A stretch of DNA of 64,000 bases from Sneathiella sedimenti (GTDB lineage Bacteria > Pseudomonadota > Alphaproteobacteria > Sneathiellales > Sneathiellaceae). The translations under genes were made by a program, and so were the position numbers. The notes under the pieces were generated by a model, which made no database searches, was not told where the DNA came from, and saw only the letters and a program-made list of their open reading frames with translations. The stretch is from assembly GCF_017313765.1 (NCBI RefSeq), contig NZ_JAFLNC010000001.1, positions 868,001-932,000 of the forward strand, given 5' to 3'. Below, in pieces: positions 18,533-56,574 of this stretch; position 1 is the first letter of the stretch; every line of letters starts with the position of its first letter.

Positions 18533-21500
18533 ATGAACGGGCTATTCATTGGTGAAGGAACGCTTCTTGTTCAATGTGCCGAGGAGTTTCGGCGTGCCGG
18601 CGGAGAAATTTCTGCAATCCTGACCCGTGAACCTCGCGTTCGGGCCTGGGCGGAGGCGGAAGGTCTGCCGGTTTTTGATGATCCAAATGGCGATGGCCTT
18701 GAAACCCTCGCCTATGATTATCTGTTCAGTATCGTAAACCTGACAATATTCCCGCAGCATCTGCCCCAGCGTCCGCGCAAATTTGCCATCAACTTTTTTG
18801 ACGGGCCCTTGCCGAAATATACTGGCGTCAATGTCACGTCCTGGGCGCTGATGAACGGGGAAACCTCCCACGCGGTTACCTGGCATGAAATGAAGGACAC
18901 TCCGGATTCCGGCCGTATCCTGAAATCGCGCATGGTCGAGATTGCTCCAGACGAAACCTCCATGAGTCTCAACGCGAAATGTTACGAAGCCGGGCTCGCT
19001 TCCTTCACTGAATTGGTCGCGGAGTTGAAATCTGGCTCTGTCCACCCGCAGGAACAGGGTAGCGAAAAAACCCGCTATGACGCCGAGAAACGACCCGAAA
19101 ATCTCGGCGCGCTTGATTTCACTAAGCCGGCGGCGGAGCTGGACCGGCTTGTCCGGGCGCTAGATTTCGGGACTTATGCCAACCCCTTGGGCGCGGCGAA
19201 ACTCTGGACAGGGAAAGCCATTTCCCTGGTTGGCTCACTCACCATTCACGATGGCACGGCCGCCAACGCACCGGGACATGTGGTCGCGCTGGATGATGCC
19301 GGAATCACTATCTCCGCAAGCGATCATGACGTCACGCTTGGCGCGTTTCGCTGCCTCGCCGGGGAACCCCGCCATCCAAACGCCGTCGGCCTGCAGGTAG
19401 GATCGCAGATTCCCGCCCTCTCTCCGCTATCCGATGACGAAATCACATCGATCGCTAATGCCGAGCTTTACTGGCAAAGGTCTCTTGTCTCGGCACAGCC
19501 ATTGCAATCCCCCTACCCGTCAAACCGGGATACAGCTTCCGGGGCGGTATCCGTCCCGCTTAACCTAAACCAACCTTTGAATGTGGACGAGGCCACGGCC
19601 GGCCTTCTTGTCTGGCATTCTCTCTTGATGGGGGCGAAAACGGTTTCCTGCGGTACGGACGCAGAAAACACGGTGCATCCCCTGATCGCGGAAAATCTGC
19701 TGGTCACGCTTCCCGTCGATGCGGCCTCAAGCGTTACGGAGACGATGCAGTCCTACGCCAAAATTAAGGCGGAAAGTGTGGCCGCAGGCCCACGCAGTGT
19801 AGACCTGATTGCGCGTCTGTCCGATCCTGCGGCGCGTGACGTCGCCTTGCGGTCGCTGAATATTGCCGTCACTACGGAAGAAGCGGCGGATGTCGATCTT
19901 CTGGGCGACCGTCTTCTGATCCTTGCGCTTGGGGAGAGCCCCCGCGTTATCGCCCGGACGGGGCTCTATGCGCGCGATATTCTTGCCGCCATTGGGCGGG
20001 ATCTTTCGTTTTTCCTTAACGCCTTCGTTGCCAACAGGGAAGTTGCGCTGAAAGACCTCCCGCTGACCGATCCAAATGAGAAACAGGCCGGCATGGACGC
20101 CATGGGCGTCGATTATCCCCGTGACAAACGTATTCATGACGTAATCCGCGAACAGGTTGCGAAAACACCGGATGCCATCGCGCTCAAAGCAGATGCGGAT
20201 GTGCTGACCTATGCGGAACTGGAGGCGCGCACGGATGCGCTCGCCGCCGCTCTTGCAGCTCGTGGCGCGGGACGGGGTGTGATTGTCGGAATATGTCTCG
20301 AACGATCGACCGACTTGATCGTTTCTTTGCTCGCGATCCTGAAAACCGGGGCGGCCTACCTGCCGCTCGATCCCGCCTATCCGGCGGAACGTGTCGCCTT
20401 CATGATAGAGGATAGCAACGCGCCGCTGATTGTGGCCAGCCCGACGACCGAGTTCAAGTTCCGGCTCGATCCGAAAAAGATCGTCTATCCGGACGCGACG
20501 GAGAGTGATTTCACCCAACCCGCCGGTGAGCCGTCCGATCTCGCCTATATGATGTACACCTCTGGCTCGACCGGCACGCCGAAGGGTGTGATGTTGACCC
20601 ATCGGAACATTGTCAATTTCTTCACCGGCACCGACCTGACCGTGCCCCATGACGGGGAGGTCCGGCTGCTCGCCATTACGTCAGTTTCCTTTGATATTTC
20701 CGTGCTGGAGATTTTCTGGACGCTGGCGCGCGGTTTCACCATCGTGCTGCAAACGGATGGAGCCGCCTCGACTGCGGTTCCAGGTTTCAGCCTGTTCTAC
20801 TTTGCCTCGGAAGCCGCGGGAAGCGGGCCGGAGGCCTATCGTCTCCTGCTGCAGGGCGCGAAATTCGCCGATGACAACGGATTCGAAGCGGTCTGGACGC
20901 CAGAGCGGCATTTCCATGCCTTTGGCGGCCTCTACCCCAATCCGGCAGTGAGCTCCGCCGCGGTTGCGGCGACGACAAAGAATATCGATATCCGCGCTGG
21001 CTCCTGCGTGCTGCCGCTGCATAATCCTGTGCGGGTCGCGGAAGACTGGGCGCTGGTGGATAATATTTCCGGCGGGCGTGCGGGGATCGCGATTGCCAGC
21101 GGCTGGCAGCCGAATGACTTTGTGCTGCAACCGGAGAATTTCGAGAATCGCAAGGATGTGATGCTGGACGGCATCGACACACTGCGCAAGCTCTGGCGCG
21201 GCGAGAGTATCAAGCTCCCAAATCACAAGGGAGAGGAGATCGAGGTTGCCACCCTTCCGCATCCGGTGAAAGGCGACATTCCCCTTTGGCTGACGGCGGC
21301 AGGGAACCCCGAAACCTTCGCCGCGGCGGCCAGAAAAGGCTGCTATGTGCTGACCCATCTGCTCGGACAAAAGTTTGAGGATGTGGCCGAGAAAATCCGC
21401 GCCTATCGCATGGCCTGGCGCGAGGCCGGTCATCCCGGTAACGGTAAGGTCTCCCTGATGCTACATACCTTTGTGGGTGAGGATGAAGATCAGGTGCGCG

Positions 21501-23041
21501 AAACCGTGCGTGCGCCAATGAAGGGATATCTCAAAAGCTCGGTCGATCTTCTCCGCCGGGCGTCCTGGAGCTCCCCGACCTTCAAGCAGAAGGCTGACGC
21601 AACGGGTTTGACGCCCCAGGAAGTCTTTGAAAAACAGGAACTTACAGAAGAAGAGACAGACGCGCTCCTTGATCATGCATTTGAACGCTATTATCAGACG
21701 AGCGGCCTGTTCGGAACCCCAGACAGCTGTCAGGAGTTGGTGCGGGAAATCGCCCGCATGGGTGTCGACGAGATCGCCTGCCTGATTGATTTTGGCGTCG
21801 ATACGGATATGGTGCTGGCGCATCTCCCTTATATCAATGACCTGAAGAACAATCTGCTGGCCGAAGGCGGGGTGGCCCGCCAGGCCTCCGTCGCGGAGCA
21901 GATTGTCGAGCATGATATCACCCATTTCCAATGCACGCCGTCAATGGCGTCCTTCCTGGTGGCCGAGCAGGCCGGACGGACCGCGCTTGGCAAACTCGAT
22001 GTGATGATGGTCGGCGGGGAGGGGTTCCCGCCCGATCTTGCGCGGAATTTGCGCTCCCATCTCAAGGGAACCTTGCTTAATATGTACGGAACGACAGAAA
22101 CGGCTGTCTGGTCATCGGTCGCGAACCTCAAAACAGTAGGCGAGACGATCCCCCTTGGCGAGGCGATTGCCAACACAATCTATTCTGTACGCAATGAATT
22201 CGGCCAGGCGCTGCCGAGCGGTGTTGCCGGGGAGCTCTGGATTGGTGGCGATGGTGTTGCGGACGGATACTGGAACCGCAAAGAACTGACGGCGGAGCGT
22301 TTCCTCGATACGGCGGAAGGACGTTTCTACCGGACCGGCGACCTGGTTCGTCATATGCCGGACGGCCGGCTTGAGTTCCATGGTCGCATGGACAATCAGG
22401 TCAAGGTACGCGGCCACCGGATCGAGCTTGGCGAGATCGAGGCAAAACTCGGCTCCCTGGACGAGGTGAAGGACGCTGCCGTCACCGTGTTCGAGACGGG
22501 CGATAGTGATAAACGCCTTGTTGCCTTCGCGACAACCGCGCCGGGACATAAGATCGACCCGCAGGAAGTGCGTCGGAAACTCGGCGCCATGCTCCCGGAA
22601 TTCATGACGCCGTCCCAGGTGATCGTGCTCGAAGTGATGCCGCAGACACCGAACGGCAAAATCGACCGCAAGGCACTGCCGAAACCGCAAGGGCAGGCGA
22701 GTGTTGCGACGGAGGCGGCCCAGAGCGATACGGAAGCCGCGATTGCCAAAATCTGGTGCGAGGCGCTTGGTCTTGCCGAGGTAGGCGTGACTGAAAATTT
22801 CTTTGATCTTGGCGGGCATTCCCTTCTGGTGGTGCAGGTGCAGCGGCGGTTAAAGGAATTGTTCGACAAGGAAGTTGCCATTACGGACATGTTCCGCTTC
22901 TCCACAATACAGGCACTGGCCCGTCACCTCGATGGCGGTGGCACAGCAGAGGGAGAATCGACGGCAGCCATGCGCGGTGCCCAACGGGCAGCGGCGCGGC
23001 GCGCCCGCATGACACGACGAACCGGGACGACTGTACAGTAA
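18533..23041 (+). CDS. NRPS loading protein: formyltransferase-like, adenylation domain split by a luciferase-like monooxygenase, carrier domain
   Basis: 1502 residues. Residues 1-230 resemble formyl-THF-dependent formyltransferases (INFFDGPLPKYTG, DTPDSGRIL); the usual catalytic His after Asn87 is Phe89. Residues 300-525 look like a remnant condensation domain without HHxxxDG. The adenylation domain starts near 530 (A3 YTSGSTGTPKG at 675, A4 FDISVLE at 720) and is interrupted by a FMN-dependent luciferase-like monooxygenase of the MupA/Atu3671 type (about 745-1105), then resumes (A5 NMYGTTET 1183, A7 YRTGDL, A8 GHRIELGEIE, A10 NGKIDRK). The ten specificity residues read D-I-L-Q-M-G-M-V-W-K, close to the published glycine code. 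The carrier Ser is 1430 (GGHSLL). It probably activates and oxidises glycine on the carrier. A PKS gene follows 74 bp downstream. Confidence 0.9.
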   Translation: MNGLFIGEGTLLVQCAEEFRRAGGEISAILTREPRVRAWAEAEGLPVFDDPNGDGLETLAYDYLFSIVNLTIFPQHLPQRPRKFAINFFDGPLPKYTGVNVTSWALMNGETSHAVTWHEMKDTPDSGRILKSRMVEIAPDETSMSLNAKCYEAGLASFTELVAELKSGSVHPQEQGSEKTRYDAEKRPENLGALDFTKPAAELDRLVRALDFGTYANPLGAAKLWTGKAISLVGSLTIHDGTAANAPGHVVALDDAGITISASDHDVTLGAFRCLAGEPRHPNAVGLQVGSQIPALSPLSDDEITSIANAELYWQRSLVSAQPLQSPYPSNRDTASGAVSVPLNLNQPLNVDEATAGLLVWHSLLMGAKTVSCGTDAENTVHPLIAENLLVTLPVDAASSVTETMQSYAKIKAESVAAGPRSVDLIARLSDPAARDVALRSLNIAVTTEEAADVDLLGDRLLILALGESPRVIARTGLYARDILAAIGRDLSFFLNAFVANREVALKDLPLTDPNEKQAGMDAMGVDYPRDKRIHDVIREQVAKTPDAIALKADADVLTYAELEARTDALAAALAARGAGRGVIVGICLERSTDLIVSLLAILKTGAAYLPLDPAYPAERVAFMIEDSNAPLIVASPTTEFKFRLDPKKIVYPDATESDFTQPAGEPSDLAYMMYTSGSTGTPKGVMLTHRNIVNFFTGTDLTVPHDGEVRLLAITSVSFDISVLEIFWTLARGFTIVLQTDGAASTAVPGFSLFYFASEAAGSGPEAYRLLLQGAKFADDNGFEAVWTPERHFHAFGGLYPNPAVSSAAVAATTKNIDIRAGSCVLPLHNPVRVAEDWALVDNISGGRAGIAIASGWQPNDFVLQPENFENRKDVMLDGIDTLRKLWRGESIKLPNHKGEEIEVATLPHPVKGDIPLWLTAAGNPETFAAAARKGCYVLTHLLGQKFEDVAEKIRAYRMAWREAGHPGNGKVSLMLHTFVGEDEDQVRETVRAPMKGYLKSSVDLLRRASWSSPTFKQKADATGLTPQEVFEKQELTEEETDALLDHAFERYYQTSGLFGTPDSCQELVREIARMGVDEIACLIDFGVDTDMVLAHLPYINDLKNNLLAEGGVARQASVAEQIVEHDITHFQCTPSMASFLVAEQAGRTALGKLDVMMVGGEGFPPDLARNLRSHLKGTLLNMYGTTETAVWSSVANLKTVGETIPLGEAIANTIYSVRNEFGQALPSGVAGELWIGGDGVADGYWNRKELTAERFLDTAEGRFYRTGDLVRHMPDGRLEFHGRMDNQVKVRGHRIELGEIEAKLGSLDEVKDAAVTVFETGDSDKRLVAFATTAPGHKIDPQEVRRKLGAMLPEFMTPSQVIVLEVMPQTPNGKIDRKALPKPQGQASVATEAAQSDTEAAIAKIWCEALGLAEVGVTENFFDLGGHSLLVVQVQRRLKELFDKEVAITDMFRFSTIQALARHLDGGGTAEGESTAAMRGAQRAAARRARMTRRTGTTVQ

Positions 23042-23115: not shown

Positions 23116-26100
23116 ATGACAGAGAGCAATGAGGGAATTCAGGCTTCTGAGAGGATCGCTATTGTCGGCATGGCAGGGCGATTTCCGTCTGCGCGTTCTG
23201 TTGCGCAGCTTTGGAATCTGCTGGCAAACGAACGTATCGGCACGCGCTGGTTCACCGATGAGGAAATGCTTGAAAACGGCGTCAGCCCTAAGGAGCTGGC
23301 TAATCCCAATTATGTGAAGGCGGCCAACTACCTTTCCGACATGGAATGCTTTGATGCCGGTTTTTTCGGTTTTTCCCCGCGCGAGGCCTCAATCCTTGAT
23401 CCGCAGCACCGCCATTTTCTTGAATGCGCGTGGGAGGCCTTCGAGGATGCAGGTCATATGCCCGAGAATTTCGACGGACGTATCGGCGTTTTTGCGGGCT
23501 CCGGCATGCAGGCTTATTTGCCATATAATCTGCTCACCAATCCCGATCTCGTGGAGGAAATCGGTCTGTTCCTGCTCCGGCATACGGGCAATGACAAGGA
23601 TTTTCTCACCACCCGCCTGTCCTATCTTCTGAATCTGCAGGGCCCCTCCGTCGCGATCCAGACGGCCTGTTCCACCTCGCTCGTCGCGGTGCATCAGGCC
23701 GCGGCCAGCCTCCTTTCCATGGAGTGTGACATGGCCATTGCCGGCGGCGTGACGGTGGAGCTGCCGCATCGCCACGGCTATAAATTCGCCGAGGGGGAAA
23801 TCCAGTCGCCGGATGGCCTTTGTCGCCCGTTTGATAATGACAGTGAGGGAACCGTATTTGGCTCCGGTGCGGCACTTGTGGTCCTGCGCCGGCTAGAGGA
23901 TGCCCTGGCCGATGGCGATGACATCAAGGCGGTGCTGATCGGCTCTGCGGTAAATAACGATGGCGCACAGAAGGCGGGATATCTTGCTCCCAGCGTCGAC
24001 GGCCAGGCGGAGGCGGCGGCCGAGGCCCTCGCCATTGCCGGTGTCCCGGCGGAAACGGTCAGCTATATCGAGGCGCATGGCACGGGAACACCGGTCGGCG
24101 ACCCGATCGAGCTTGCGGGGCTGTCGCAGGTGTATGGTGAAGGCGGAACAGGGTTTTGCGGGATCGGGTCGGTCAAGAGCAATATCGGCCATCTTGATAC
24201 GGCGGCAGGCACCACCAGCTTGATCAAGGTGGTGGAGGCGCTGCGCCATGAAATCTTGCCGGCCTCGCTCAACTACAAAACACCGAACAGCCGGTTTGAT
24301 ATTGCAAACAGCCCCTTTTATGTGGTGGCGGAGACCAAACCCTGGCCGCGCGGCTCTATTCCGCGGCGCGCCGGGATCAATTCACTCGGGGTCGGCGGCA
24401 CGAATGCCCATGCGATAATCGAGGAGGCCCCGCTTCGCCCCGTCGTTACCCATGCGGAAAGCTGGCGGTTGTTTCCCTTTTCGGCGCGGGACAGGAAGGC
24501 GCTGGATGGCCTTCAGGAGAAATGGCGGGATTTTGCTGCGTCGCCGGAAATGCCCGAGCTTGCCGACGCTGCCTTTACGTTGCGCCATGGCCGCCGTGAG
24601 TTTTCCGAGCGTCGGGTCCTTGTCGCGAAAAGTGTGGAGGACCTTAAAGCAGGGCTCTGGAACGACCAGCCCGATCATGTTGCCGAAGGAAGCGTTGGCA
24701 CCGGTAAGGCAGAAGTGGTGTTCATGTTTCCGGGCGGTGGCGCACAGTACCCAGGCGCAGGCGCGGGGCTGCTTGCAAGTTCCGATGCGTTCCGGGTGGC
24801 GGTTGATGAGTGTTTTGCACAGATGCCGGCCGACGCGCCCGCCGATCTTCGCAGCGTCATGTTCGAGAAAACCCTCGGGGATGCAGAGGCGCGCGGCAAG
24901 ATGGAGATGTCGGGTTACGCCATCCCGGCGCTGTTTGTGCTGGAGTATGCCTACGCCACGATGTTCAGGAGCTGGGGCGTGGAACCCGCCGCTGTTCTCG
25001 GTCATAGTGCAGGCGAATATGCGGGGGCTGTGATCGCCCGGGTGATGTCGGTTGCTGACGCGCTTAAAATTGTCGTCTGGCGCGGCAAGGTGATGGATGC
25101 AGCCGCTGCTGGCGCAATGAGTATTATTCCTGCACCGCGCGAAAAAGTGTCGGAACTGATCGGTGATCAACTGGATATCGCGGCGCTCAATGCGCCGGAC
25201 CTCTGTGTGGTATCCGGCGAGGTTGCAAGAATTGACGCGCTGGAGAGTGAGCTTAAGGGAACGGAATATGAAGCGACGCGGGTGCGTATCAATGTTGCTG
25301 CCCACAGTCGGATTCTCGATGACCAGCTTGATAATTTCCGCAAAGGCATTCAGGGTATCCAGCTAACAGAGCCGGAAATTCCCTTTGTGTCCACCTTGCG
25401 TGGCAACTGGCCGAAAAACGGCGACTTCTCGACCATCGATTACTGGGTTGACCATCTGCGTCATACAGTCCGCTTTGCCGATGCGATCGAAACCGTGCTG
25501 CAAAAGCCGAACCGTATCCTGCTGGAAGTGGGACCGGGACAGACACTCGGACCGCTTGCGGAGATGTGCCGGGCGGAGAATGATCCGCTGGCTGTGATTT
25601 CCTCGGGCCGTCCACCCAAAGACGTGGATGACGACATGGCGCATGCACTAGTGGCGGCAGGACATATCTGGACCGTTGGCGGGACACTTGACTGGGAAAA
25701 GCTGCCAGGTGCCGAGGGCAGGCGCGTCTCCCTGCCAACCTACTCTTTCGCGCGCGATCGCCACTGGATCGAGCCGGGGGTTGGCGGCGCGGTCAATGCC
25801 GAGGACGCGGAGAGCGCAAATGCCGTTCATCTTACCCGGCAGGAAAATACTGACGACTGGTTCGTTACGAAAAGCTGGAAATTTGCGCCGATCCCGCCCG
25901 CCGAGCCACGCCATGGTAGCCACTGGCTCCTCTTTCATGGCGGGGATCCGGTCTCGGATGCCCTTGTCGCCGAACTGTCCGAACGGCGGGAGGATGTGAT
26001 CATCGTTCGGCCTGGCGATGAATTCCGAAAAGAGGCGGGCGGATATCGCCTCGCGGCAAACGTGGCGCAAGATTATGATGCACTCTTTTTTGATCTCGCG

Positions 26101-29100
26101 GTCATGCCGAGTCATATTATTCATGCCTGGCCAATGGCGGCGGCAGCGGACGGTCAGGAAGGGTTGTTCGACAGTGCCTTTTGCCTCGCCCGAGCCATAC
26201 AGTCTGCTGATCCGGCCGAAGATTTACGCCTGACCTTTATCGGAAGTGGGGGCTTTTCCGTCGCCGGGGAGCCGATCCCCTATCCGGCGCTTGGCACCCT
26301 GATCGGGCCAGTTCGCGTGGCGCCCCGGGAAGTTCCGGGCTTGAGCGCCCAGTATATAGACCTGGAAACGGCGGAAGACCCGGTCTGGGCTGCGCGGGCG
26401 ATCCTTGATGAACAGGGCGGAACCACCGCGGACGACTGCATCGCTTTCCGCGGGCGTCAACGCTATGCGCAGCAACTGGACTCCCTGCCGGTTACAACGT
26501 CGGATGCCTTGCCCAAGCGGGTGAAAGAGGGTGGTCGGTATCTGATTACCGGTGGCGCGGGAGGTATCGGATTGGAACTCGCGCACTATCTTGGAACAGC
26601 GGCGAAAGCAAAAGTCGCCCTGATTGGCCGGAAGGAAATGCCCGATCGGCGCGAGTGGGAAAAGGTCATTGAGACAGCGCCGTCTTCACGGGAGGCGGCG
26701 GCCCTGAAAACCGCACTGGCAATTGAAGCTGCGGGCGGCAAGCTGCTGTATCTGTCTGCGGATGTTTCGGACAAGCCGGCGTTAAGTAGGGCCCTTGAGA
26801 AGATCAAGGCGGACATTGGCGGCCTCGACGGGGTGTTCCACGGAGCCGGTATCATGGATGATGCGCCGATGCTCGGGAAAAGTCTGGAAGACACCCATCA
26901 TGTGCTCGCCCCGAAAGTGGAGGGCGGGGAAAATCTGTCGGCCCTGCTGCCGCCCGGCAAACTTGATTTCTTTGCGGTTTTTTCCTCCACCTCGGTCATT
27001 ACGGCCCCGCCGGGTCAGGTTGATTACGTCGCAGCAAACAGCTATCTGGAAAGCCTCGCCGCGTCGCGCGCCGATGGTATCGCGATTTCCTGGGGAGTCT
27101 GGCGTGATGTCGGGATGGCCGCCCGCGCCTATCGTAGTCAGGAAGTGGGTGTGGCAGGCGCGCATCCTCTTCTAGGTCCGATCGAGACGGATGACAACGG
27201 AACTCTTTCTTTTACATGCTATTACGATCCGGCTGATCTTTGGGTTCTCGCCGAGCATGTGGTCGGTGGCGTTCCCGTTTTGCCGGGTACAGCCTATATC
27301 GAGATCGTCCGCGCCGCGATGGAACAGGCCGCGCCCGGGCGCAAATGGGAAATCCAGTCTCTCTCCCTGTTAAGCCCGATGATATTTCCGGATGGAGTTC
27401 GGGCGCGCGTTGTCGTCACCCTGACCCCGACAGACCGTGGGTATGACTTCCAGGTACAAAGCAGTGCCTCGGCGGAGGCGCCGCTGATCGAGCATTGCCG
27501 TGCCAATCTCATGTTGAAACGGTTGACGGATCGCAAGTTGCCCGCGGGCCTTCAGGCGCCCGCAAATATGTCCGTCTCCGAAAACAGCGGCCAGGATTCG
27601 CAAGAGGAGCTGATTGATTTTGGTCCGCGCTGGGATAATGTCGGGGAGATTCGCGTTGGCGCCCAGATTGTCGAGGCGGACTTTGCCCTGCCAGAAGCAT
27701 ATCTCGCAGACCTCGAAACCTATGCGGCCCACCCGGGGCTGACGGATACGGCGGCGACGATCGGGCTCAATCTGCTGGCAGACGTTGGCACCGAGGGCGC
27801 GTTCTATGCGCCAATGTCCATCGACCGCCTGCGTATTCTGAGACCCTTAACGCCCCGCTTTGTTGCGCGGGCGCGTCTGGTTGCGGAGACACCGGGACGG
27901 TTCGCAAGCTTCGATGTCGTCTTTTCTGATGAGAAGGGCGCGCCGCTCATGATTCTGGAGGGGTTCGCGCTCAGTCGCGTTGAAGGCACCAGCTTCGACA
28001 CCGCGCGCGCGCCGGAACAGCTCGTTGATATCATGATTGCACAAGGCATTGCCGCGGAAGATGCGCCTGCGGTATTCCGCCGGGTCCTTAATTCAGATGC
28101 GAAAACGATCGTTGTCTCGCCGACGTCAATGACGGATATTGCCCGCGAGATGGCGCGGATCGGGGCGCAACGGCGGAAAAAGTCTGACGGAGCGCGCAAA
28201 GAACAAGCCGGCAGCCAGACAGCATATGCCAACTCGGTCGAGGAAAAAATTGCTGAATTCTGGTCCGATCTTCTCGGCGTGGACCAGGCAGAACCGGATG
28301 CCGACTTCTTTGATCTGGGCGGCCATTCGTTGGCCGCGGTGCGCCTTTTCGCGAAAATTCGCAAAGAATATGACACGGATCTGCCACTTGCCACCTTGTT
28401 CCAGGCGCCAACATTGCGCCTCCTCTCGGAGATGGTGATTTCCAAAGGCGGTATCGATATTGAGATGTCGGCAGGCTCCGACACCGTAACGGTTACAGAT
28501 AGTGATTCAGACTGGTCGCCCCTGGTTCGGATCAAGAAGGGAGCACCGCAAGTAAAGCCTCTCTATCTGGTCCATGGTGCGGGCGGCAATGTTCTCAATT
28601 TCAGGTCGCTCTCTGGCTATATCGATTCCAAGATACCTTTCTATGCTTTACGCGCCCTTGGCTCGGACGGCGAACCGGAAATTCACGAAACAATTGAGGA
28701 GATGGCGAGTTGCTACGTTGCCGCGATTCTTAAGAGCCAGCCAGAGGGGCCGTATAATCTCGCCGGCTATTCCGGTGGCGGGGTGATTGCCTTTGAAATG
28801 GCGCAGCAGTTGCGCGCAGCCGGGCACGAAGTGGGTCACCTGATCTTCTTCGATACTCTCGCGCCGGACATCGACCCGCAACCGGTCAGTATTCTAGAGA
28901 AAATATGGACAGCACGTCACTGGAGCCTGGGATTCGCCCTCAAATGGCCAATCCGGAAATGGCAGAGTCGCTCTGCCGGACGTGAAATGGCGCAAATCGC
29001 TGAGCTACTTGCAAAGGGGGAGAAAATCCCCGACGAGCTAGTTGGCCAGCGGATGACCAGCGCCTATCTCACGGCGGAAAGCCGTTATCGACCTGCGGAT

Positions 29101-29301
29101 TACCCTGATGATGTTCTGCTGTTTAAAGGCAGACAGGCGAGCATGGACTTCCTGCGAGCCGGCCCGCACCTCGGCTGGGATAAATTCGTTTCCGGAAATA
29201 TTGAGGTAATGATTTTCGACTGCGATCACTTCAACATGATGATCGATCCAACAATCAGCGAGATCGGCAAGATTCTGAACGAGTTGCTGCTTAATCGGTG
29301 A
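23116..29301 (+). CDS. Type I polyketide synthase KS-AT-KR-DH-ACP-TE
   Basis: 2061 residues. KS (about 12-435) has Cys185 (TACSTS), His321 and His359. AT (about 532-830) has Ser631 (GHSAGEY); the specificity loop reads VAAHS instead of the malonyl HAFH or methylmalonyl YASH. KR: structural half at 915-1120, NADPH motif TGGAGGIG (1145), LDD-like MDD (1247), Tyr1304, Asn1308. DH: His1381 (HVVGGVPVLP) and Asp1544. Residues about 1640-1680 look like the C-terminal lid of a KR, so the DH seems nested in it. ACP Ser1738 (GGHSL). TE: Ser1886 (GYSGGG), Asp1913, His2038. It should extend the upstream carrier-bound glycine by one malonate, reduce, dehydrate and release it. The last 11 bp overlap the opposite-strand hydrolase gene. 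Confidence 0.93.
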   Translation: MTESNEGIQASERIAIVGMAGRFPSARSVAQLWNLLANERIGTRWFTDEEMLENGVSPKELANPNYVKAANYLSDMECFDAGFFGFSPREASILDPQHRHFLECAWEAFEDAGHMPENFDGRIGVFAGSGMQAYLPYNLLTNPDLVEEIGLFLLRHTGNDKDFLTTRLSYLLNLQGPSVAIQTACSTSLVAVHQAAASLLSMECDMAIAGGVTVELPHRHGYKFAEGEIQSPDGLCRPFDNDSEGTVFGSGAALVVLRRLEDALADGDDIKAVLIGSAVNNDGAQKAGYLAPSVDGQAEAAAEALAIAGVPAETVSYIEAHGTGTPVGDPIELAGLSQVYGEGGTGFCGIGSVKSNIGHLDTAAGTTSLIKVVEALRHEILPASLNYKTPNSRFDIANSPFYVVAETKPWPRGSIPRRAGINSLGVGGTNAHAIIEEAPLRPVVTHAESWRLFPFSARDRKALDGLQEKWRDFAASPEMPELADAAFTLRHGRREFSERRVLVAKSVEDLKAGLWNDQPDHVAEGSVGTGKAEVVFMFPGGGAQYPGAGAGLLASSDAFRVAVDECFAQMPADAPADLRSVMFEKTLGDAEARGKMEMSGYAIPALFVLEYAYATMFRSWGVEPAAVLGHSAGEYAGAVIARVMSVADALKIVVWRGKVMDAAAAGAMSIIPAPREKVSELIGDQLDIAALNAPDLCVVSGEVARIDALESELKGTEYEATRVRINVAAHSRILDDQLDNFRKGIQGIQLTEPEIPFVSTLRGNWPKNGDFSTIDYWVDHLRHTVRFADAIETVLQKPNRILLEVGPGQTLGPLAEMCRAENDPLAVISSGRPPKDVDDDMAHALVAAGHIWTVGGTLDWEKLPGAEGRRVSLPTYSFARDRHWIEPGVGGAVNAEDAESANAVHLTRQENTDDWFVTKSWKFAPIPPAEPRHGSHWLLFHGGDPVSDALVAELSERREDVIIVRPGDEFRKEAGGYRLAANVAQDYDALFFDLAVMPSHIIHAWPMAAAADGQEGLFDSAFCLARAIQSADPAEDLRLTFIGSGGFSVAGEPIPYPALGTLIGPVRVAPREVPGLSAQYIDLETAEDPVWAARAILDEQGGTTADDCIAFRGRQRYAQQLDSLPVTTSDALPKRVKEGGRYLITGGAGGIGLELAHYLGTAAKAKVALIGRKEMPDRREWEKVIETAPSSREAAALKTALAIEAAGGKLLYLSADVSDKPALSRALEKIKADIGGLDGVFHGAGIMDDAPMLGKSLEDTHHVLAPKVEGGENLSALLPPGKLDFFAVFSSTSVITAPPGQVDYVAANSYLESLAASRADGIAISWGVWRDVGMAARAYRSQEVGVAGAHPLLGPIETDDNGTLSFTCYYDPADLWVLAEHVVGGVPVLPGTAYIEIVRAAMEQAAPGRKWEIQSLSLLSPMIFPDGVRARVVVTLTPTDRGYDFQVQSSASAEAPLIEHCRANLMLKRLTDRKLPAGLQAPANMSVSENSGQDSQEELIDFGPRWDNVGEIRVGAQIVEADFALPEAYLADLETYAAHPGLTDTAATIGLNLLADVGTEGAFYAPMSIDRLRILRPLTPRFVARARLVAETPGRFASFDVVFSDEKGAPLMILEGFALSRVEGTSFDTARAPEQLVDIMIAQGIAAEDAPAVFRRVLNSDAKTIVVSPTSMTDIAREMARIGAQRRKKSDGARKEQAGSQTAYANSVEEKIAEFWSDLLGVDQAEPDADFFDLGGHSLAAVRLFAKIRKEYDTDLPLATLFQAPTLRLLSEMVISKGGIDIEMSAGSDTVTVTDSDSDWSPLVRIKKGAPQVKPLYLVHGAGGNVLNFRSLSGYIDSKIPFYALRALGSDGEPEIHETIEEMASCYVAAILKSQPEGPYNLAGYSGGGVIAFEMAQQLRAAGHEVGHLIFFDTLAPDIDPQPVSILEKIWTARHWSLGFALKWPIRKWQSRSAGREMAQIAELLAKGEKIPDELVGQRMTSAYLTAESRYRPADYPDDVLLFKGRQASMDFLRAGPHLGWDKFVSGNIEVMIFDCDHFNMMIDPTISEIGKILNELLLNR

Positions 29302-40113: not shown

Positions 40114-40764
40114 CTACCCGGCGTCAGGTTGATGAACGGCCTCGGGCGTGGCTTTCCGAAATGCTTCAATTGTGGCGCAATGATCGCCAATCGCGCGAAG
40201 TCGCGGCATCGCGGACATATCGACCCCCCAGCGTTCGGCGTTATAAAGCTGCGGAACCAGGCAGATATCGGCTATTGTCGGATGATTTCCGACGCAGAAA
40301 TCGCCGTTTTTCGCTTCCATTGCCATAATTTCGAGAGCGGATAGGCCCTTGGTGATGAAATGGCGCATCCAGTTGGCCTTGTCTGCATCGCCACCCTTCA
40401 TCAAAGCCACCGCATGGGCCGCCACATTGAGGTTGCAGACCGGGTGTATATCCATCGCAATGACATCGGCCATGGCCCGCGCCTTTTGCCGCGCTGTTGG
40501 TGTTTCAGGTAGAAGGGGGATCTTTGGCCGTGTTTCCTCCAGGTAATTGATAATAGAGACGGATTGGGTCATGACCTGCCCGTCGATTTCCAGTGCGGGA
40601 ACGTAGCCTTGCGGATTGCGCGCTAGGTGAGCCTCGGACAGGTTTTCCTGCGTCAGCAGGTTGACCGGCACGGCTCTATAGGCAATACCCTTGATATTAA
40701 GCGCAATGCGGACGCGATAGCTCGCACTGGATCGCCAATAATCATAGAGAATAATTTCTGTCAT
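40114..40764 (-). CDS. maiA: Maleylacetoacetate isomerase
   Basis: 216 residues, a zeta-class glutathione transferase. SSASYRVRIALNIKG near residues 12-26 is the signature of the zeta class with the catalytic Ser; NPQGYVPALEIDG binds glutathione. It isomerises maleylacetoacetate to fumarylacetoacetate in tyrosine/homogentisate catabolism. It is the last gene of the minus-strand homogentisate operon, 15 bp after the DUF2783 gene. Confidence 0.93.
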   Translation of the reverse strand: MTEIILYDYWRSSASYRVRIALNIKGIAYRAVPVNLLTQENLSEAHLARNPQGYVPALEIDGQVMTQSVSIINYLEETRPKIPLLPETPTARQKARAMADVIAMDIHPVCNLNVAAHAVALMKGGDADKANWMRHFITKGLSALEIMAMEAKNGDFCVGNHPTIADICLVPQLYNAERWGVDMSAMPRLRAIGDHCATIEAFRKATPEAVHQPDAG

Positions 40765-40779
40765 CGCGGAACCCCTTTA

Positions 40780-40977
40780 TTAAGAGGCTGCCGCACGCTC
40801 AATGGCGGCGGTAAGGCTGTTGATATCCCCGACTTCATTGGCGAGTATAAGGACGAGCCGGGCGTTGAGCGCGGCAGATTGATCGAATTCCAGCCCGTCA
40901 TGCGCGGCCATCAGCAGTTCGTAAAAATCATCGCCATGTGGATGCAGGCGGTCGCGGAGGTCTAAATTCTGGCTCAT
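40780..40977 (-). CDS. DUF2783-family small protein
   Basis: 65 residues, MSQNLDLRDRLHPHGDDFYE at the start, with helical character and no membrane segment. It matches the DUF2783 family, whose members often sit beside FAD monooxygenase genes; the function is unknown. Its start overlaps the stop of the FAD monooxygenase gene by four bases (40974-40977), so translation is coupled. Confidence 0.85.
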   Translation of the reverse strand: MSQNLDLRDRLHPHGDDFYELLMAAHDGLEFDQSAALNARLVLILANEVGDINSLTAAIERAAAS

Positions 40978-42563
40978 ATTGCTGTCTCCAGGGCAAGGCT
41001 GCCGGTGGCGCGAACAAGCGCCCGTTCGATCGCTTTGCTATCCGTTCCGGCCTCGAACGCCGCGGCGATATGCTGGTCCGGGCGGATGAGGTAGATCATG
41101 TCGTCGCCATATTGGGCGATTACGCCGGGACTATTTTCAAAATGCAGGGATTTTACTCCTGATGGGGCAAGCGCTTTTGCCCTGGCTCCAATAGTGAGAA
41201 GAATGAATTCCTTTCCGAGCTGATTGAGAAGCCAGCCATCCTCCAGCGGTGCATCGGGGCAGGGGGTGCCGGGCGCAAGACCACGCGGTGCGGTATGAGG
41301 GCTTTGCAGTGTAAAACCTTCCAGCGAACAGGGGAACGACAGGCGGCCGGAATTCACAAGCCGTCGCGCAAAGGGGAGATCGCTTGCGAGGTTCAGCACG
41401 GCATCACGGAACATTGCCTCCATCTTCGATTTCGGGGTCATGAAATTGGTCGCGCGGGCGGAGTTCTTGATATTCTCGCGCGCGCCGTGCCGCCGTTCCT
41501 CATCATAGCTTTCTAGGAGGGCTGGCTCCGCTTCCCCTTTTAGAACGGCGGCCAGCTTCCAGCCGAGGTTATCCACATCCTGAATGCCGCCATTGCCACC
41601 GCGCGCGCCAAAGGGAGAGACCACATGGGCGCTGTCTCCGACGAAAATTATCCGGCCATGAACAAACTTTTCCAGCATCGCGCAGGTAAAGCTGTACACG
41701 CTGACCCAGTCGATCTTGAAGTCACGGTCGCCGATAATCTGTTTCACACGCGGGATCACCTGCTCGGGCTTTGCCTCCTCCGTGGGGTCAGTATCCGGAC
41801 CAAGTTGAAGATCAATGCGGTATATATTATCCGGCTGCTTATGAAGGAGAGCGGATTGTCCCGAATGAAAGGGCGGCTTGAACCAGAACCAGCGCTCTGG
41901 CGTTTCGCTTTCAAATGGAGGCTCGGGCATTTCAACATCCGTGATCAGGAAATGTTCCTCAAAGGTCTGCCCTTCGAACGCCAATCCCATGCGCTGGCGT
42001 ATTTGTGATTTGCATCCATCGCAGGCAAGAACATAGTCCGCACTGAGCCAGTAATTACCTTCCGACGTCTTCACATGAAGCGCGACACCGTCGTCGGTGA
42101 TCTCTTCACCTGTGACCTTATTCAGCCAGCGTAAATCAATCAGATCCGGAAAATCCGCAATCCGGTCAACAAGGTACTCCTCCACATAATATTGCTGGAG
42201 ATTGACGAAGGCGGGCATCTTATGCGCGTCATCGGGCAGAAGATCGAAATTATAGACCTCCTCCTTCCCATGAAACAATCGACCGACTTTCCACGTCACG
42301 CCCTTTTCCAGCATCCGGTCACCGATACCGAGCCGGTCGAAGATCTCCAGGGTGCGCTTGGCCCAGCAGATGGCACGGGACCCGACGGAGACCATATTAT
42401 TGTCGTCCAGAATTACGGAGCGGATACCATGCAGGGCAAGGTCTATTGCCATGGCCATTCCGATAGGGCCCGCGCCGATGATGGCGACGGGGTATCTGCC
42501 ACGGCCCTCGCCCATCAGCTCTGGCGGAGTTCGAAATGGATATTTCCTGTTCTGATAATGCAT
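40974..42563 (-). CDS. FAD-dependent aromatic hydroxylase-like monooxygenase
   Basis: 529 residues from the ATG at 42563 (MHYQNRKYPF); the frame opens earlier at 42707 inside the MBL gene. Rossmann motif AIIGAGPIGMAMAIDLALHG near residue 27, the DG motif LACDGCKSQIRQRMG, and the GD motif FVGDSAHVVSPFGARGGNGG identify a group A flavoprotein hydroxylase, close to 3-(3-hydroxyphenyl)propionate hydroxylases. It oxidises an aromatic ring with NAD(P)H and oxygen; the substrate may be a homogentisate precursor. Eight bp after the MBL gene. Confidence 0.88.
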   Translation of the reverse strand: MHYQNRKYPFRTPPELMGEGRGRYPVAIIGAGPIGMAMAIDLALHGIRSVILDDNNMVSVGSRAICWAKRTLEIFDRLGIGDRMLEKGVTWKVGRLFHGKEEVYNFDLLPDDAHKMPAFVNLQQYYVEEYLVDRIADFPDLIDLRWLNKVTGEEITDDGVALHVKTSEGNYWLSADYVLACDGCKSQIRQRMGLAFEGQTFEEHFLITDVEMPEPPFESETPERWFWFKPPFHSGQSALLHKQPDNIYRIDLQLGPDTDPTEEAKPEQVIPRVKQIIGDRDFKIDWVSVYSFTCAMLEKFVHGRIIFVGDSAHVVSPFGARGGNGGIQDVDNLGWKLAAVLKGEAEPALLESYDEERRHGARENIKNSARATNFMTPKSKMEAMFRDAVLNLASDLPFARRLVNSGRLSFPCSLEGFTLQSPHTAPRGLAPGTPCPDAPLEDGWLLNQLGKEFILLTIGARAKALAPSGVKSLHFENSPGVIAQYGDDMIYLIRPDQHIAAAFEAGTDSKAIERALVRATGSLALETAI

Positions 42564-42570
42564 TGCCCGA

Positions 42571-43521
42571 CTATCCTTGCAGGGAGGCCCACATTTCCTT
42601 GTCCCGTTCCGCCGTCCAGATACGCGGCGTGTCGATGCCTTGCGCCTCGTCATAGGCGCGGGCGACATTGAACGGCAGGCAATGTTCATAGATTGCATAA
42701 TCGGCAAATTTGGGGTCGCATTCGGCGCGAACCGCGTCCCAGGCTTCCTTCAGGCTTCCGCCGCGTGCGACCACGGCGGCAACGGGACGATACGTGCTCT
42801 CGACGAAATCACGGGTGTTGGTGAGCGCCGCATTTACAAGCTCATCCCCGACAAGTGCATCGCCACGTCCGGGCACGATGGATTTCGGGTTGAAGGCGGC
42901 TATGGCGTCAAGTGTCTTGCCCCAATCGTTGAAATGCCCGTCTCCGCAATAGCAGGCGGAGTGATACTCGACAACGTCGCCGGAGAAAATCACGCCTGAA
43001 TCCGGGACATGGACGACGACGTCGCCTGCAGTATGGGCGCGACCCAGATGCATCAGGTCGACCCGCCGTTTACCAAGGTAAACAGTCATCTTCTTGGAGA
43101 AGGTCATGGTTGGCCAGGTCAGCCCCGGAATGCCTTCATGTCCTTCGAACAGGCGGGGGAAGCGTTCAAACTCACTATCCCAGTCCTCCTGTCCACGCTC
43201 GGCGACCATCGCGCGGCATTTATCGGACGCGATAATTTCCTCTGCGTTATAGGCGGAGGCACCGAGAACCCGGACCGCATGATAATGAGACAGAACAACA
43301 TATTTGACCGGCTTGTCGGTGACCGACCGGATGCGCTCCATTACCATATTCGCCATGCGGGGCGTCGCCTGGGTATCGATAACCATGACGGAATCGTCGC
43401 CGATTATAACCCCGGTGTTTGGATCTCCCTCCGCGGTGAAGGCCCAGAGATCGGGACCGATTTCCGTAAATGAAATGGTTTTTTCTTCCATGTCGCCTTG
43501 TGAGGCAAACGCTTTGCTCAT
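42571..43521 (-). CDS. MBL-fold protein with an altered metal site
   Basis: 316 residues. The metallo-beta-lactamase fold is clear, but the HxHxDH motif reads LSHYHAVRVLG: His79 and His81 are kept, while the expected Asp and His of the second site are Val83 and Arg84. The further metal-ligand regions GRAHTAGD and FSGDVV are kept. The second metal site is probably lost or changed. It lies between fahA and the FAD monooxygenase, in the homogentisate operon. It could be a thioesterase or lactonase-like hydrolase; unproven. Confidence 0.82.
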   Translation of the reverse strand: MSKAFASQGDMEEKTISFTEIGPDLWAFTAEGDPNTGVIIGDDSVMVIDTQATPRMANMVMERIRSVTDKPVKYVVLSHYHAVRVLGASAYNAEEIIASDKCRAMVAERGQEDWDSEFERFPRLFEGHEGIPGLTWPTMTFSKKMTVYLGKRRVDLMHLGRAHTAGDVVVHVPDSGVIFSGDVVEYHSACYCGDGHFNDWGKTLDAIAAFNPKSIVPGRGDALVGDELVNAALTNTRDFVESTYRPVAAVVARGGSLKEAWDAVRAECDPKFADYAIYEHCLPFNVARAYDEAQGIDTPRIWTAERDKEMWASLQG

Positions 43522-43542
43522 CTTGATTTCCCTTTATTGAAG

Positions 43543-44565
43543 TTACGCGCCCTTGGGCGTGTATTTTTGGACAGTCTGCTCAATCGCGCCAAAAATTGAG
43601 GCGCCGTTTGCGTCTTTCATCTCAATCCGGACGGTGTCGCCGAATTTCATGAAAGGTGTGACGGGCTTCCCGCCATTAATCGTCTCGATCATGCGGATTT
43701 CCGCGATACAGGAAAAACCGTCCCCGCCTTCGGAAATTGCCTTTCCCGGTCCGTCATTCAGCTTGTTGGAAACCGTTCCTGAACCGATAATCGAACCCGC
43801 ACACAGCGGCCGGGTCTTTGCTGCATGGGCAATCAGCTCGGCAAAGTTGAAGGTCATGTCGATGCCCGCATTGGCCTTGCCAAAGGGCGCGCCGTTATAG
43901 TCGACAAGCAGCGGGAGGTGGAGTTTCGCCCCGTCCCAGGCATCGCCCAAGTCATCGGGCGTCACAGCGACGGGAGCAAAGGCGCTCGACGGTTTGGAGT
44001 GGAAAAAACCAAACCCCTTGCCAAGCTCTGCCGGGATCAAGCCGCGCAGGGATACATCGTTGGCGATCATGACAAGCCGGATCGCGTCGCGGGCCTGATC
44101 AGTACCTGCGCCCATCGGGACATCATCGACGATCACCGCCACTTCACCTTCCATATCGATGCCATAGGCTTCATCCGCCATCCGGATCGGGTCATGGGGT
44201 GCCAGAAAGCTGTCTGACCCGCCCTGATACATCAACGGATCGGTCCAGAAAGAGGGGGGCATCTCCGCACGCCTTGCTTTTCGCACCAGCTCTACATGAT
44301 TGACATAGGCCGAACCATCCGCCCATTGAAAGGCCCGAGGAAGCGGCGAATGGGCTGCGCTTTGGTCGAATTTCTCGCCGTAAGAGCTATCGTTTTCCAG
44401 TTGTTTCGCCACTTCCTGTAGTTTCGGGGAGGAAACGTCCCAGTTATCGAGCGCACCCTGTAAATGGGCGGCTATGTCTGGCACTTTTACGCAGCGGGTG
44501 AGGTCTTTCGAGACCACGACCAGGCAGCCGTCGCGACTGTCGTCTTTTAGTGTTGCTAGCTTCAT
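43543..44565 (-). CDS. fahA: Fumarylacetoacetate hydrolase
   Basis: 340 residues. The C-terminal FAH fold holds the metal-binding acid residues in [19 protein letters not shown] (about residue 140-158) and the [28 protein letters not shown] segments. It cleaves fumarylacetoacetate to fumarate and acetoacetate, the last step of tyrosine catabolism. It overlaps hmgA by four bases, so the two are coupled. Confidence 0.93.
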
Positions 44566-45869
44566 TTCTTTCCCTCGATCGTTCCATCAAATTTCTTCTC
44601 AAGCCCGTCCCAGCAGTTGATATAGTTCTTTTGCAGGCTGTCGTGGCAGGCGGCGAATTCGGTGACGAGTTGCGGCAGGCGCGTCTCGAACATGAACGCC
44701 ATCGTCTCGTCGAGCTTTTGCGGCGCCAGGTCCGCATTGCTGGCCTTCTCGAACCCGAAGCTGTCCGGCCCGTGCGGGAGCATCATGTTATGCAGGCTGA
44801 TGCCGCCGGGAACGAATCCTTCCTCCTTCGCGTCATACTGACCCTGGATAAGCCCCATGAACTCGCTCATGATGTTGCGGTGATACCAGGGTGGGCGGAA
44901 GGTATCCTCTGCCACCAGCCAGCGCGGCGGGAAGATGGCCAGATCCACATTTGCCGTCCCGGGTTCACCCGTTGGGGCTGTCAGGACAGTGAAAATTGAC
45001 GGATCGGGATGATCAAAGGAAATCGACCCGATGGTGTTGTAGTGACGGAGGTCGTATTTGTAAGGGGCATAATTTCCATGCCAGGCCACCACATCAAGGG
45101 GAGAATGCATGATATCTGTGCCATAGAACTTCCCGCCCCATTTGGTTTCAACCCGGCAGGGAGATTCTTTTTCTTCGTAAGTGGCAGTGGGATACTTGAA
45201 ATCGCGTGGATTTGCGAGGCTGTTCGCACCGATCGGACCGCGTTCAGGCAGGGTGAACCGCGGGCCGTAATTTTCGCAGATATAGCCACGGGCGGATCCG
45301 TCCACCAGTTCCACACGAAACATCATACCGCGCGGCAGGACACAGATTTCCAATGGCTCTACGTCCAGAATACCGAGCTCCGTTATGATCCTCAACCGGC
45401 CCATTTCCGGGACCAGCAGCATCTCCCCATCCGCGTTGAAGAAATAGTCATCTGTCATGTCCGCATTGGCCACATATATGTGTGCCGCCATACCCGCTTG
45501 CGCGAGAACGCTGCCCGCAGTGGTGATGGTGCGAATCCCCGAGATAAAGGATGTGGGTTCAACGGGCACAGCAATCGGGTTCCACCGGAGCTGACCAAGC
45601 GGCGCATCCTCAAAAGCGGCTGGCGCGGATTTCCAAAGCGGCCGGTCTACGGGCCTGAAATGCTGCATATGCCGGACGGAGGGGCGCATCCGGTAAAGCC
45701 AGCTGCGGGCATTCGTGGCATTGGGTGCCGTAAAGGCAGTGCCTGAGAACTGTTCCGCATAGAGGCCATAGGCGCATTTCTGGGGACTATTACGCCCCTC
45801 CGGCAGGGCGCCGGGAAGTGCCTCTGTTTCAAACTCATTATTGAAACCGGACATGTAGGCAAGAACCAT
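44562..45869 (-). CDS. hmgA: Homogentisate 1,2-dioxygenase
   Basis: 435 residues, the normal length. The start [25 protein letters not shown] is typical. The iron ligands are visible in [13 protein letters not shown] (His, Glu six residues on) and [17 protein letters not shown] (the second His). It opens the homogentisate ring to maleylacetoacetate. It is the first gene of the operon hmgA-fahA-MBL-FAD-DUF2783-maiA, divergent from a MarR gene across an 84-bp gap. Confidence 0.96.
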
Positions 45870-54157: not shown

Positions 54158-54175
54158 GATTTGAGCCGGAGCGCC

Positions 54176-55450
54176 ATGCCGACCCCAGAATGTGAAAGTC
54201 CTGTTATTGTTGTCGTGCTGAAGGGGTATCCGCGTCTGTCGGAAACTTTTATCGCGCAGGAGCTTCTGGCCTTACAGCGGCGGGGTCTCGATCTCGCGCT
54301 CGTCTCCCTGCGTCATCCGACCGACAATACGACCCATCCCGTGCATCAGGAAATTTCCGCGCCCGTCAATTATTTGCCGGAATATCTATATCAGGAACCG
54401 CTCCGTGTATTGAAGTCCTGGTGGTGCGTACGCAACAACCCGGGATATCGCAAGGCACGGACTGTCTGGCTGAAAGACCTGCGCCGTGACCTGACGCCCA
54501 ACCGTGTTCGCCGATTTGGGCAGGCGCTGGTGCTGGCCGCGGAAATGCCGCCGAACGCAGCAATGATCTATGCCCATTTCCTGCATACGCCAGCGTCAGT
54601 CGCGCGCTATGCCAGCCTGGTCACCGACAGGAGCTGGAGTTGTTCCGCCCATGCTAAGGATATCTGGACGTCTCCCGAGTGGGAGCTTCGCGAAAAGCTG
54701 GCTGAACTTTCGTGGTTGGTGACCTGTACTTCCGTCAATGCAGACTATTTGTCTTCGTTGGCGGTGGATGACACGAAGGTGTCGCTCATGTATCACGGCC
54801 TTGATATGTCCCGGTTTCCGGAGTTTTCAGAACGCCACCATGCGCGGGATGGCTCCGACCGGACGGCGCCGGTAGAGATTGTCTCGGTCGGTCGGGCGGT
54901 GGCGAAGAAGGGATATGATGATCTTTTAAGGGCACTTGCGGCGCTGCCAGCAGATCTCCATTGGAAGTTCACGCATATTGGTGGCGGCCCCCTGCTCAAG
55001 GACCTGAAAGCGCAGGCAAAGGATCTTGGCATAGCAGAAAACCTTGATTGGCGCGGGGCGTTACCGCAGGGCGAGGTTCTGCAGGCGCTTAAGGCTGCGG
55101 ATATTTTCGTCCTAGCCAGCCGTATTGCTGAAGATGGCGACCGTGACGGCCTCCCAAATGTCCTGATGGAGGCGCAAAGCCAGAAAGCGGCGGTGGTGGC
55201 GACGAATGTGTCGGCAATCCCCGAATTGGTAATCGACGATGAAACCGGACTTCTGGTGCCAGAGCGTGACCCAGCGGCATTAACAGTTGCGCTGTCCCGA
55301 CTGATACGGGAGCCTGCGCTGCGGCAGCAATTCTCCGATAAGGGAAACCGGCGCTTGCGTGATCTCTTCGACGCCAACCGCTGGATCGGCAGCCTTGCCG
55401 AAAAACTGGGCCCGCCCTCACAACCCTGCAAAACCGGAACCGCAACGTGA
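54176..55450 (+). CDS. Glycosyltransferase family 4 (GT-B fold)
   Basis: 424 residues from the ATG at 54176, which has CCGGAG upstream; an in-frame TTG at 54161 is possible. It has the opening VVVLKGYPRLSETFIAQELLAL, typical of colanic-acid-type (WcaL-like) GT4 enzymes, and the donor-site region IAEDGDRDGLPNVLMEAQS near residue 320. It transfers a nucleotide-activated sugar to a glycan or lipid acceptor. First of eight overlapping genes; divergent from the degenerate ABC protein. Confidence 0.88.
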   Translation: MPTPECESPVIVVVLKGYPRLSETFIAQELLALQRRGLDLALVSLRHPTDNTTHPVHQEISAPVNYLPEYLYQEPLRVLKSWWCVRNNPGYRKARTVWLKDLRRDLTPNRVRRFGQALVLAAEMPPNAAMIYAHFLHTPASVARYASLVTDRSWSCSAHAKDIWTSPEWELREKLAELSWLVTCTSVNADYLSSLAVDDTKVSLMYHGLDMSRFPEFSERHHARDGSDRTAPVEIVSVGRAVAKKGYDDLLRALAALPADLHWKFTHIGGGPLLKDLKAQAKDLGIAENLDWRGALPQGEVLQALKAADIFVLASRIAEDGDRDGLPNVLMEAQSQKAAVVATNVSAIPELVIDDETGLLVPERDPAALTVALSRLIREPALRQQFSDKGNRRLRDLFDANRWIGSLAEKLGPPSQPCKTGTAT

Positions 55451-56574
55451 AGCTCGCTTTTTATGCGCCTATGAAGTCACCCGACCACCCGGTTCCGTCC
55501 GGAGACAGGCGAATGGGAAGGTTGCTCTGGTCGGCGCTGGAATTGGCGGGTTTCGAACCGGTGCTGGCCTCTGAAAAGAGAAGTTTTGACAGTCAGGGCG
55601 ATGCGGATTTTCAACACGCCATGAAAAAACAAGGGTCGGCGGAGGCGGAGGCACTGATCGCGAAATGGCGCGCCCGGCCCGAAGACGCGCCCAAAGGGTG
55701 GTTCACCTACCACATTTACCACAAAGCCCCCGACTGGATCGGCCCGACAGTATGCGCCGCGCTGGATATCCCCTACTTCGTGGCGGAGGCAAGCCATGCT
55801 CCCAAACGTGCGCGCGGAGGCTGGCAAATGGGTTATGAGGCCGCCGCAAGCGCTATCCGTTCCGCCCGTGCGGTTTTTCATATGACCCGGCTGGATGGGG
55901 AATGCCTGAAGCCGTTGATCGCAGCCGATAACGCGCTTGTCCTGCTGCCACCCTTTGTCGATATCGAGACGTTCATCGAAAATGCGGCCCAGATCGATAT
56001 CGATGCCGCAGTTACGAATGCCGGAGGCAGAAAAGATGTGAATAATTTGTTGGCCGTAGCGATGATGCGTGGCGGCGATAAGTTAATGTCCTATCAGCAG
56101 CTCGGCGCGGCGCTCGCACGTCTTAAAACCCCGGATTGGCAGCTACTCGTGATTGGGGACGGAGAGCGACGGCGCGAAGTGGAGGAGGCGCTTGCTCCCA
56201 TTGGCGATAAGGCCGTCTATCTTGGCGCCATGGCGCCGGATGCCTTGCCTGCCTGGTATGAATATGCCGATATTTACGTCTGGCCCGCCTGCGGGGAGGC
56301 GTATGGCATGGCCTTTCTGGAGGCAGAAGGGTGCGGCCTGCCTGTGGTGGCAGGCAATATACGGGGTGTCCCGGATGTTGTGAAGGACCGGGAAACGGGT
56401 CTTCTAACCGTTCCGGGAGACGCAGCGGCCTTTGCGGCGGCGGTTGATCAACTGCTTGCGGATGCGCCCTTGCGAGAAAAAATGGGGCAGGCAGGGCGGC
56501 AGTTTGTCCGGGAGGAACGGACACTGGCAAAAGCCGCCGAGATCTTGAAATCGCATATCGAAGGAGTACTGTAA
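55447..56574 (+). CDS. Glycosyltransferase family 4
   Basis: 375 residues from a GTG at 55447 that overlaps the previous stop by four bases (GTGA). The E-x7-E donor motif is in GEAYGMAFLEAEGCGLPVVA (about residue 287). N-terminal half less conserved: MKLAFYAPMKSPDHPVPSGD. Likely acts after the first glycosyltransferase on the same glycan. Its stop overlaps the histidine-phosphatase ATG by one base. Confidence 0.87.
   Translation: MKLAFYAPMKSPDHPVPSGDRRMGRLLWSALELAGFEPVLASEKRSFDSQGDADFQHAMKKQGSAEAEALIAKWRARPEDAPKGWFTYHIYHKAPDWIGPTVCAALDIPYFVAEASHAPKRARGGWQMGYEAAASAIRSARAVFHMTRLDGECLKPLIAADNALVLLPPFVDIETFIENAAQIDIDAAVTNAGGRKDVNNLLAVAMMRGGDKLMSYQQLGAALARLKTPDWQLLVIGDGERRREVEEALAPIGDKAVYLGAMAPDALPAWYEYADIYVWPACGEAYGMAFLEAEGCGLPVVAGNIRGVPDVVKDRETGLLTVPGDAAAFAAAVDQLLADAPLREKMGQAGRQFVREERTLAKAAEILKSHIEGVL

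Follow-up and report, generated by a model that had tools for sequence, protein, structure and literature searches.

A glycine-coded adenylation domain split by a luciferase-like monooxygenase: a predicted chain-starting module paired with a one-module polyketide synthase in Sneathiella

An adenylation (A) domain with an oxygenase built into it raises the question of what is done to the activated amino acid, and at which point of an assembly line this happens. In the window analysed here, a stretch of 64,000 nucleotides from the marine bacterium Sneathiella sedimenti, such a domain forms part of a nonribosomal peptide synthetase (NRPS) protein of 1502 residues, and a polyketide synthase (PKS) gene follows. 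With moderate confidence, we read the two proteins from their sequences as a chain-starting NRPS/PKS line in which glycine would be loaded, alpha-hydroxylated on its carrier, extended, reduced, dehydrated and released. A glycine A domain that starts a polyketide line with its own oxygenase would offer a simple two-protein system for the choice between hydroxylation and C-N cleavage by a luciferase-like monooxygenase (LLM). Many environmental bacteria share the set of formyltransferase (F), A(LLM) and PKS, which in Rhodobacterales goes together with exopolysaccharide genes.

The open reading frame of the NRPS protein begins with ATG, and scans with Pfam and NCBIfam profiles give the domain order F-A(LLM)-PCP, with AMP-binding matched as two stretches and a PP-binding match (Pfam) at residues 1403-1466 (Table 1). 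Since the scans detect no condensation (C) domain upstream of A, the protein is, on its predicted domain content, a chain-starting module. A position at the loading step had been proposed in a preliminary description of this DNA, and it is borne out by the missing C domain and by the PKS that comes next; that account was incomplete, however, in that it lacked both the N-terminal F domain and the PKS partner. The AlphaFold model of the A-LLM-PCP region has low inter-domain confidence (pTM 0.51).

Table 1. Predicted features of the starter protein and its neighbours, in positions of the window
Feature	Position	Strand	Remarks
F-A(LLM)-PCP starter NRPS protein, 1502 aa	18533..23041	+	
Formyltransferase (F) domain, aa 1-285	18533..19387	+	PF00551/PF02911; Foldseek; pLDDT 90
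Codon 89, TTT (Phe), at formyltransferase catalytic His site	18797..18799	+	NFFDGPLP; NFHDGPLP in relatives
Folded, fast-evolving linker between F and A, aa 300-525	19430..20107	+	No Pfam match
A domain part 1, motifs A1-A4	20147..20764	+	Code residues D721, I722, L725
Luciferase-like FMN monooxygenase insert (TIGR04020) at the A4/A5 site	20786..21847	+	505.6 bits; 6KET
A domain part 2	21881..22684	+	Code residues Q1133, M1159, G1161, M1184, V1192, W1193, K1376
Peptidyl carrier protein (PCP) domain	22739..22930	+	Serine in DLGGHSL; Pfam
One-module type I PKS, 2061 aa: KS (12-440), AT (535-850), KR (1140-1331), DH (1350-1624), ACP (1710-1774), TE (1815-2050)	23116..29301	+	
Alpha/beta hydrolase (PF12146 family), N-terminal hydrophobic helix	29291..30145	-	Convergent with PKS

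Anchoring on the core motifs gives the A-domain code as DILQMGMVWK. A survey of 2051 A domains found DILQLGMIWK in all four glycine A domains with MOX (PMC12283262), and the code in the window is identical to this string at eight of ten positions; the exact string occurs in three homologues of the window protein (L044, L062 and L064). The glycine code put forward in the preliminary description was recovered by this anchoring with the same ten residues, although its assignment of the two methionines was reversed: position 299 is residue 1159 and position 322 is residue 1184, an exchange of Met for Met that leaves the code unaffected. Selection of glycine by the A domain is supported, as a prediction from these residues. 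The split domain together with a code of the form DILQ(M/L/F/Y/A)GM(I/V)WK is present in 28 further homologues (Pseudomonadota, Deinococcus, Nostoc), which argues against a chance combination; a Streptomyces homologue of the split domain has DMVQLGMVWK. Second A domains in L082 and L063 carry the codes DTIWIGGVTK and DTIWVGGVTK.

The LLM covers the full length of the seco_metab_LLM profile TIGR04020 (profile positions 1-341 of 341) at residues 752-1105, well above the curated cut-off of 244.45 bits, with AMP-binding matches on both sides, as the earlier claim of a split A domain had it. It falls between A4 (FDISVLEIF, about residue 720) and A5 (NMYGTTET, about residue 1183), the site that had been named and the one at which a flavin monooxygenase is inserted in the glycine A domains of myxothiazol and melithiazol biosynthesis (PMC10204066). 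Its predicted structure folds like a flavin monooxygenase. Among solved structures, the closest is the monooxygenase domain of PuwE, 6KET (48% identity, Foldseek TMt 0.90), which comes from a different hybrid PKS/NRPS protein and is not known as a glycine-loading starter. Membership of the MupA/Atu3671 family (TIGR04020), which covers many architectures and reactions, does not define a product. The survey of A domains also reports that the glycine backbone is cut by the MOX (PMC12283262). We infer that alpha-oxidation of the PCP-bound glycyl unit is the best-supported reaction for the LLM, because of the published code and chemistry of Gly-A(MOX) modules, the relatives with the exact code and the identity to PuwE. 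A flavin reductase gene lies directly downstream of a Streptomyces A-LLM gene, and a look through the annotated genes around the cassette in the window turned up none.

The PKS gene begins 74 nt after that of the starter protein, in the same direction. Its catalytic residues are all present (KS Cys-His-His, AT Ser, KR Ser-Tyr, DH His-Asp, ACP Ser and TE Ser) and are also conserved in nearly all relatives. The 3' end of the PKS gene is overlapped by the alpha/beta hydrolase gene, whose orthologue was found only alongside the cassette: 11 Sneathiella genomes were tested, and the nine without the cassette gave at most about 30% identity. A hydrolase convergent with the PKS is likewise found in Aliiroseovarius M344 (42% identity) and G683 (45%). 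At another site, the genome has a gene for an Sfp-type phosphopantetheinyl transferase (PPTase; G000:C5, about 402.2-403.0 kb).

The N-terminal domain is a formyltransferase by its Pfam matches and by the AlphaFold model, whose best Foldseek match is the ArnA formyltransferase 2bln (TMt 0.83, E 2.9e-22), with Met-tRNA formyltransferases also matched. The catalytic His of such enzymes, H104 in the established ArnA numbering, is aligned with Phe89 in every Sneathiella copy examined, encoded by TTT in some and TTC in others, whereas it is kept in all F domains examined outside Sneathiella, including those of Deinococcus and Paracoccus. The Asn-His-Asp triad is thus incomplete in Sneathiella, N87 and D125 being kept. 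The F domain is under purifying selection among the Sneathiella copies, with a dN/dS of about 0.1 against 0.03-0.05 for the LLM and the second A segment, values that are rough given the high dS, and it is therefore not simply dead. It has diverged faster relative to the LLM than in other groups (F/LLM divergence ratio 3.3, versus 2.1 and 1.8). The lost His, the dN/dS and this faster relative divergence suggest a domain that is constrained but altered, in which formylation has probably been lost. The natural change from His to Phe would allow versions that formylate to be compared with versions that probably do not.

In the pathway that we favour, the A domain would adenylate glycine and load its own PCP, whereupon the LLM, with O2 and with FMNH2 from a reductase acting in trans, would hydroxylate the glycyl unit at its alpha carbon while it is bound to the PCP. 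The oxidised unit would then pass to the KS of the PKS downstream for a single extension with malonate; KR and DH would reduce and dehydrate the beta position; and the TE would release a small, four-carbon oxidised acid, lactam or ester of the aminobutenoate type. In relatives, the amine would be N-formylated first by the F domain, as protection, whereas the Sneathiella F domain is probably inactive or altered, so that either free glycine would be processed or the domain would serve a structural role alone. The order of events, the site of oxidation, the product and the loss of formylation we infer in every case.

In a start in the manner of MtaG, C-N cleavage would come after alpha-hydroxylation, so that the amine would depart as ammonia or formamide and the PKS would start from a glyoxylyl thioester; this is possible but on the whole doubtful. 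The insertion site is the same as in the myxothiazol and melithiazol modules and the code is near-identical, and in those modules cleavage leaves a glyoxylyl thioester (PMC10204066); moreover, with Phe in place of His in the F domain, the amine would stay unprotected, and an alpha-hydroxyglycyl unit with a free amine would, by chemical reasoning, be expected to lose ammonia. Against this, all relatives examined outside Sneathiella keep an F domain with the catalytic His, whose effect would be to shield the nitrogen and not to give it up, and SolF, whose product contains alpha-hydroxyglycine, suggests hydroxylation without cleavage (PMC10204066).

A second question is whether the product is a free small molecule. 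Genome sampling shows pairs of F-A(LLM)-PCP and KS-AT-KR-DH-ACP-(TE) proteins in several alphaproteobacterial families and also on plasmids; the cassette of F-A, PKS and hydrolase turns up in Aliiroseovarius as well as in a further alphaproteobacterial family. A tree built from the A-LLM-PCP region sets an exopolysaccharide-linked clade apart from that of Sneathiella, Aliiroseovarius and Methylobacterium. All 12 Rhodobacterales-clade relatives (L038, L043, L044, L045, L064, L067, L069, L071, L072, L084, L097 and L098) have a family-2 glycosyltransferase gene between those of the PKS and F-A(LLM)-PCP, usually followed by a PPTase gene, and these blocks lie inside exopolysaccharide loci, often with genes for a PPTase, chain-length and sugar-transferase proteins on their flanks. 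In Ruegeria and Paracoccus, the block is carried on plasmids, and plasmid copies of the cassette in Aminobacter and Shinella also lie within polysaccharide loci. On a plasmid of Deinococcus actinosclerus (L094:6851-18836), a separate F gene, A(LLM)-PCP and then the PKS adjoin capsule genes, which suggests transfer between phyla. These contexts speak for an acyl or amide decoration of a cell-surface polysaccharide as the product, a reading to which we give limited credence for the present locus: no polysaccharide, glycosyltransferase or PPTase genes lie within about 10 kb of the Sneathiella cassette, where an alpha/beta hydrolase is found in their place. Possible analogues of such a product are polysaccharide substituents with pyrrolidone rings, mentioned as background and not as evidence. 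A wider picture, which we offer only tentatively, is that of a widely transferred mini assembly line placing an oxidised glycine-malonate unit on exopolysaccharide in Rhodobacterales and Deinococcus, of which Sneathiella would hold a derived, free-standing version with its F domain reprogrammed or silenced by the fixed change from His to Phe.

Several further architectures came to light. In Paracoccus marcusii (L097:10133-15054), the annotation gives F and A(LLM)-PCP as a pair of overlapping reading frames, a split of the fused protein. Two alphaproteobacterial genomes of 1.5 Mb (L046, L047) hold large, KS-rich PKS genes with an LLM and no detected AT, a pattern that resembles a trans-AT PKS within a genome of reduced size. 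An NRPS of 4552 residues (L048:4988-18646) has an LLM inserted late in its A domain, as described for SolF (A8/A9). The literature searched contained no description of a link between the cassette and exopolysaccharide genes in Rhodobacterales; the titles and abstract openings of the papers found on Sneathiella biosynthetic gene clusters and on exopolysaccharide and PKS-NRPS systems mentioned no such cluster; and a search for a formyltransferase together with an adenylation domain and a luciferase-like monooxygenase returned nothing.

It is unlikely that the LLM passes over the loaded glycine and acts later, by alpha-hydroxylation or Baeyer-Villiger oxidation of the chain after its extension, in beta-keto or alpha,beta-unsaturated form. 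LLM domains in PKSs may carry out Baeyer-Villiger oxidation or hydroxylation of an extended chain, and TIGR04020-type members in PKS modules, CalD, MndB and others, are so described (PMC8739492); PuwE, too, is a hybrid PKS/NRPS protein. The LLM of the window, however, is lodged inside the A domain, beside the PCP that would carry the glycyl unit and on the protein upstream of the PKS, and the published Gly-A(MOX) modules act on a glycyl residue.

Close relatives belong to Sneathiella species. The LLM is present in 11 of 25 Sneathiella genomes, the one of the window included; no match was found in the other 14, several of which are incomplete. In most carriers, a GST gene flanks the cassette on one side and TRAP/thiM genes on the other, whereas in one genome (G023) this GST and TRAP neighbourhood lacks the cassette, which is found elsewhere and has therefore changed place as a unit. 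A decayed, non-functional NRPS remnant, to which the lost catalytic His and the genomes lacking a match might point, is rejected as highly improbable, contradicted by ten Sneathiella copies free of frameshifts and stops, by A, LLM and PCP domains that are under strong purifying selection among them and by the intact PKS sites. The neighbouring ZnuABC zinc genes were likewise rejected as functional partners, being absent around the G023 cassette. Elsewhere in the window, a block at 40114-45869 (-), judged from its translations, resembles aromatic/homogentisate catabolism (maleylacetoacetate isomerase-like, FAD hydroxylase, fumarylacetoacetase-like and homogentisate dioxygenase-like members) and is unrelated to the cassette, and three glycosyltransferase-like genes at 54161-58315 (+), about 25 kb away, give no sign of belonging to it.

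Three known systems share parts of this arrangement. MtaG and MelG have a glycine-activating A domain with the monooxygenase at the same A4/A5 site; the likeness to MtaG drawn in the preliminary description thus holds for the module and fails for its position in the line, since modules of that type end the chain and release a terminal amide, whereas the module of the window would start one. Here F precedes A, no C domain is present, and KS-AT-KR-DH-ACP-TE follow on the next protein, which the module would feed. Module 4 of SolF, from solanimycin biosynthesis, also combines a glycine A domain with a flavin monooxygenase, but it is an internal module with a C domain and has its insertion between A8 and A9 (PMC10204066). 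The F-A-PCP of LgrA, from linear gramicidin biosynthesis, gives the best sequence matches in the PDB and has an N-terminal formyltransferase on a starter A-PCP; it differs in lacking an LLM, in its substrate, in its active formyltransferase and in being followed by an NRPS module instead of a PKS. The formyltransferase fold before A-PCP is found in the window protein as in LgrA, without the complete catalytic triad. Judged by its predicted domains, the combination of a Gly-A(MOX) module, an F-type initiation module and PKS extension is a new variant among these systems.
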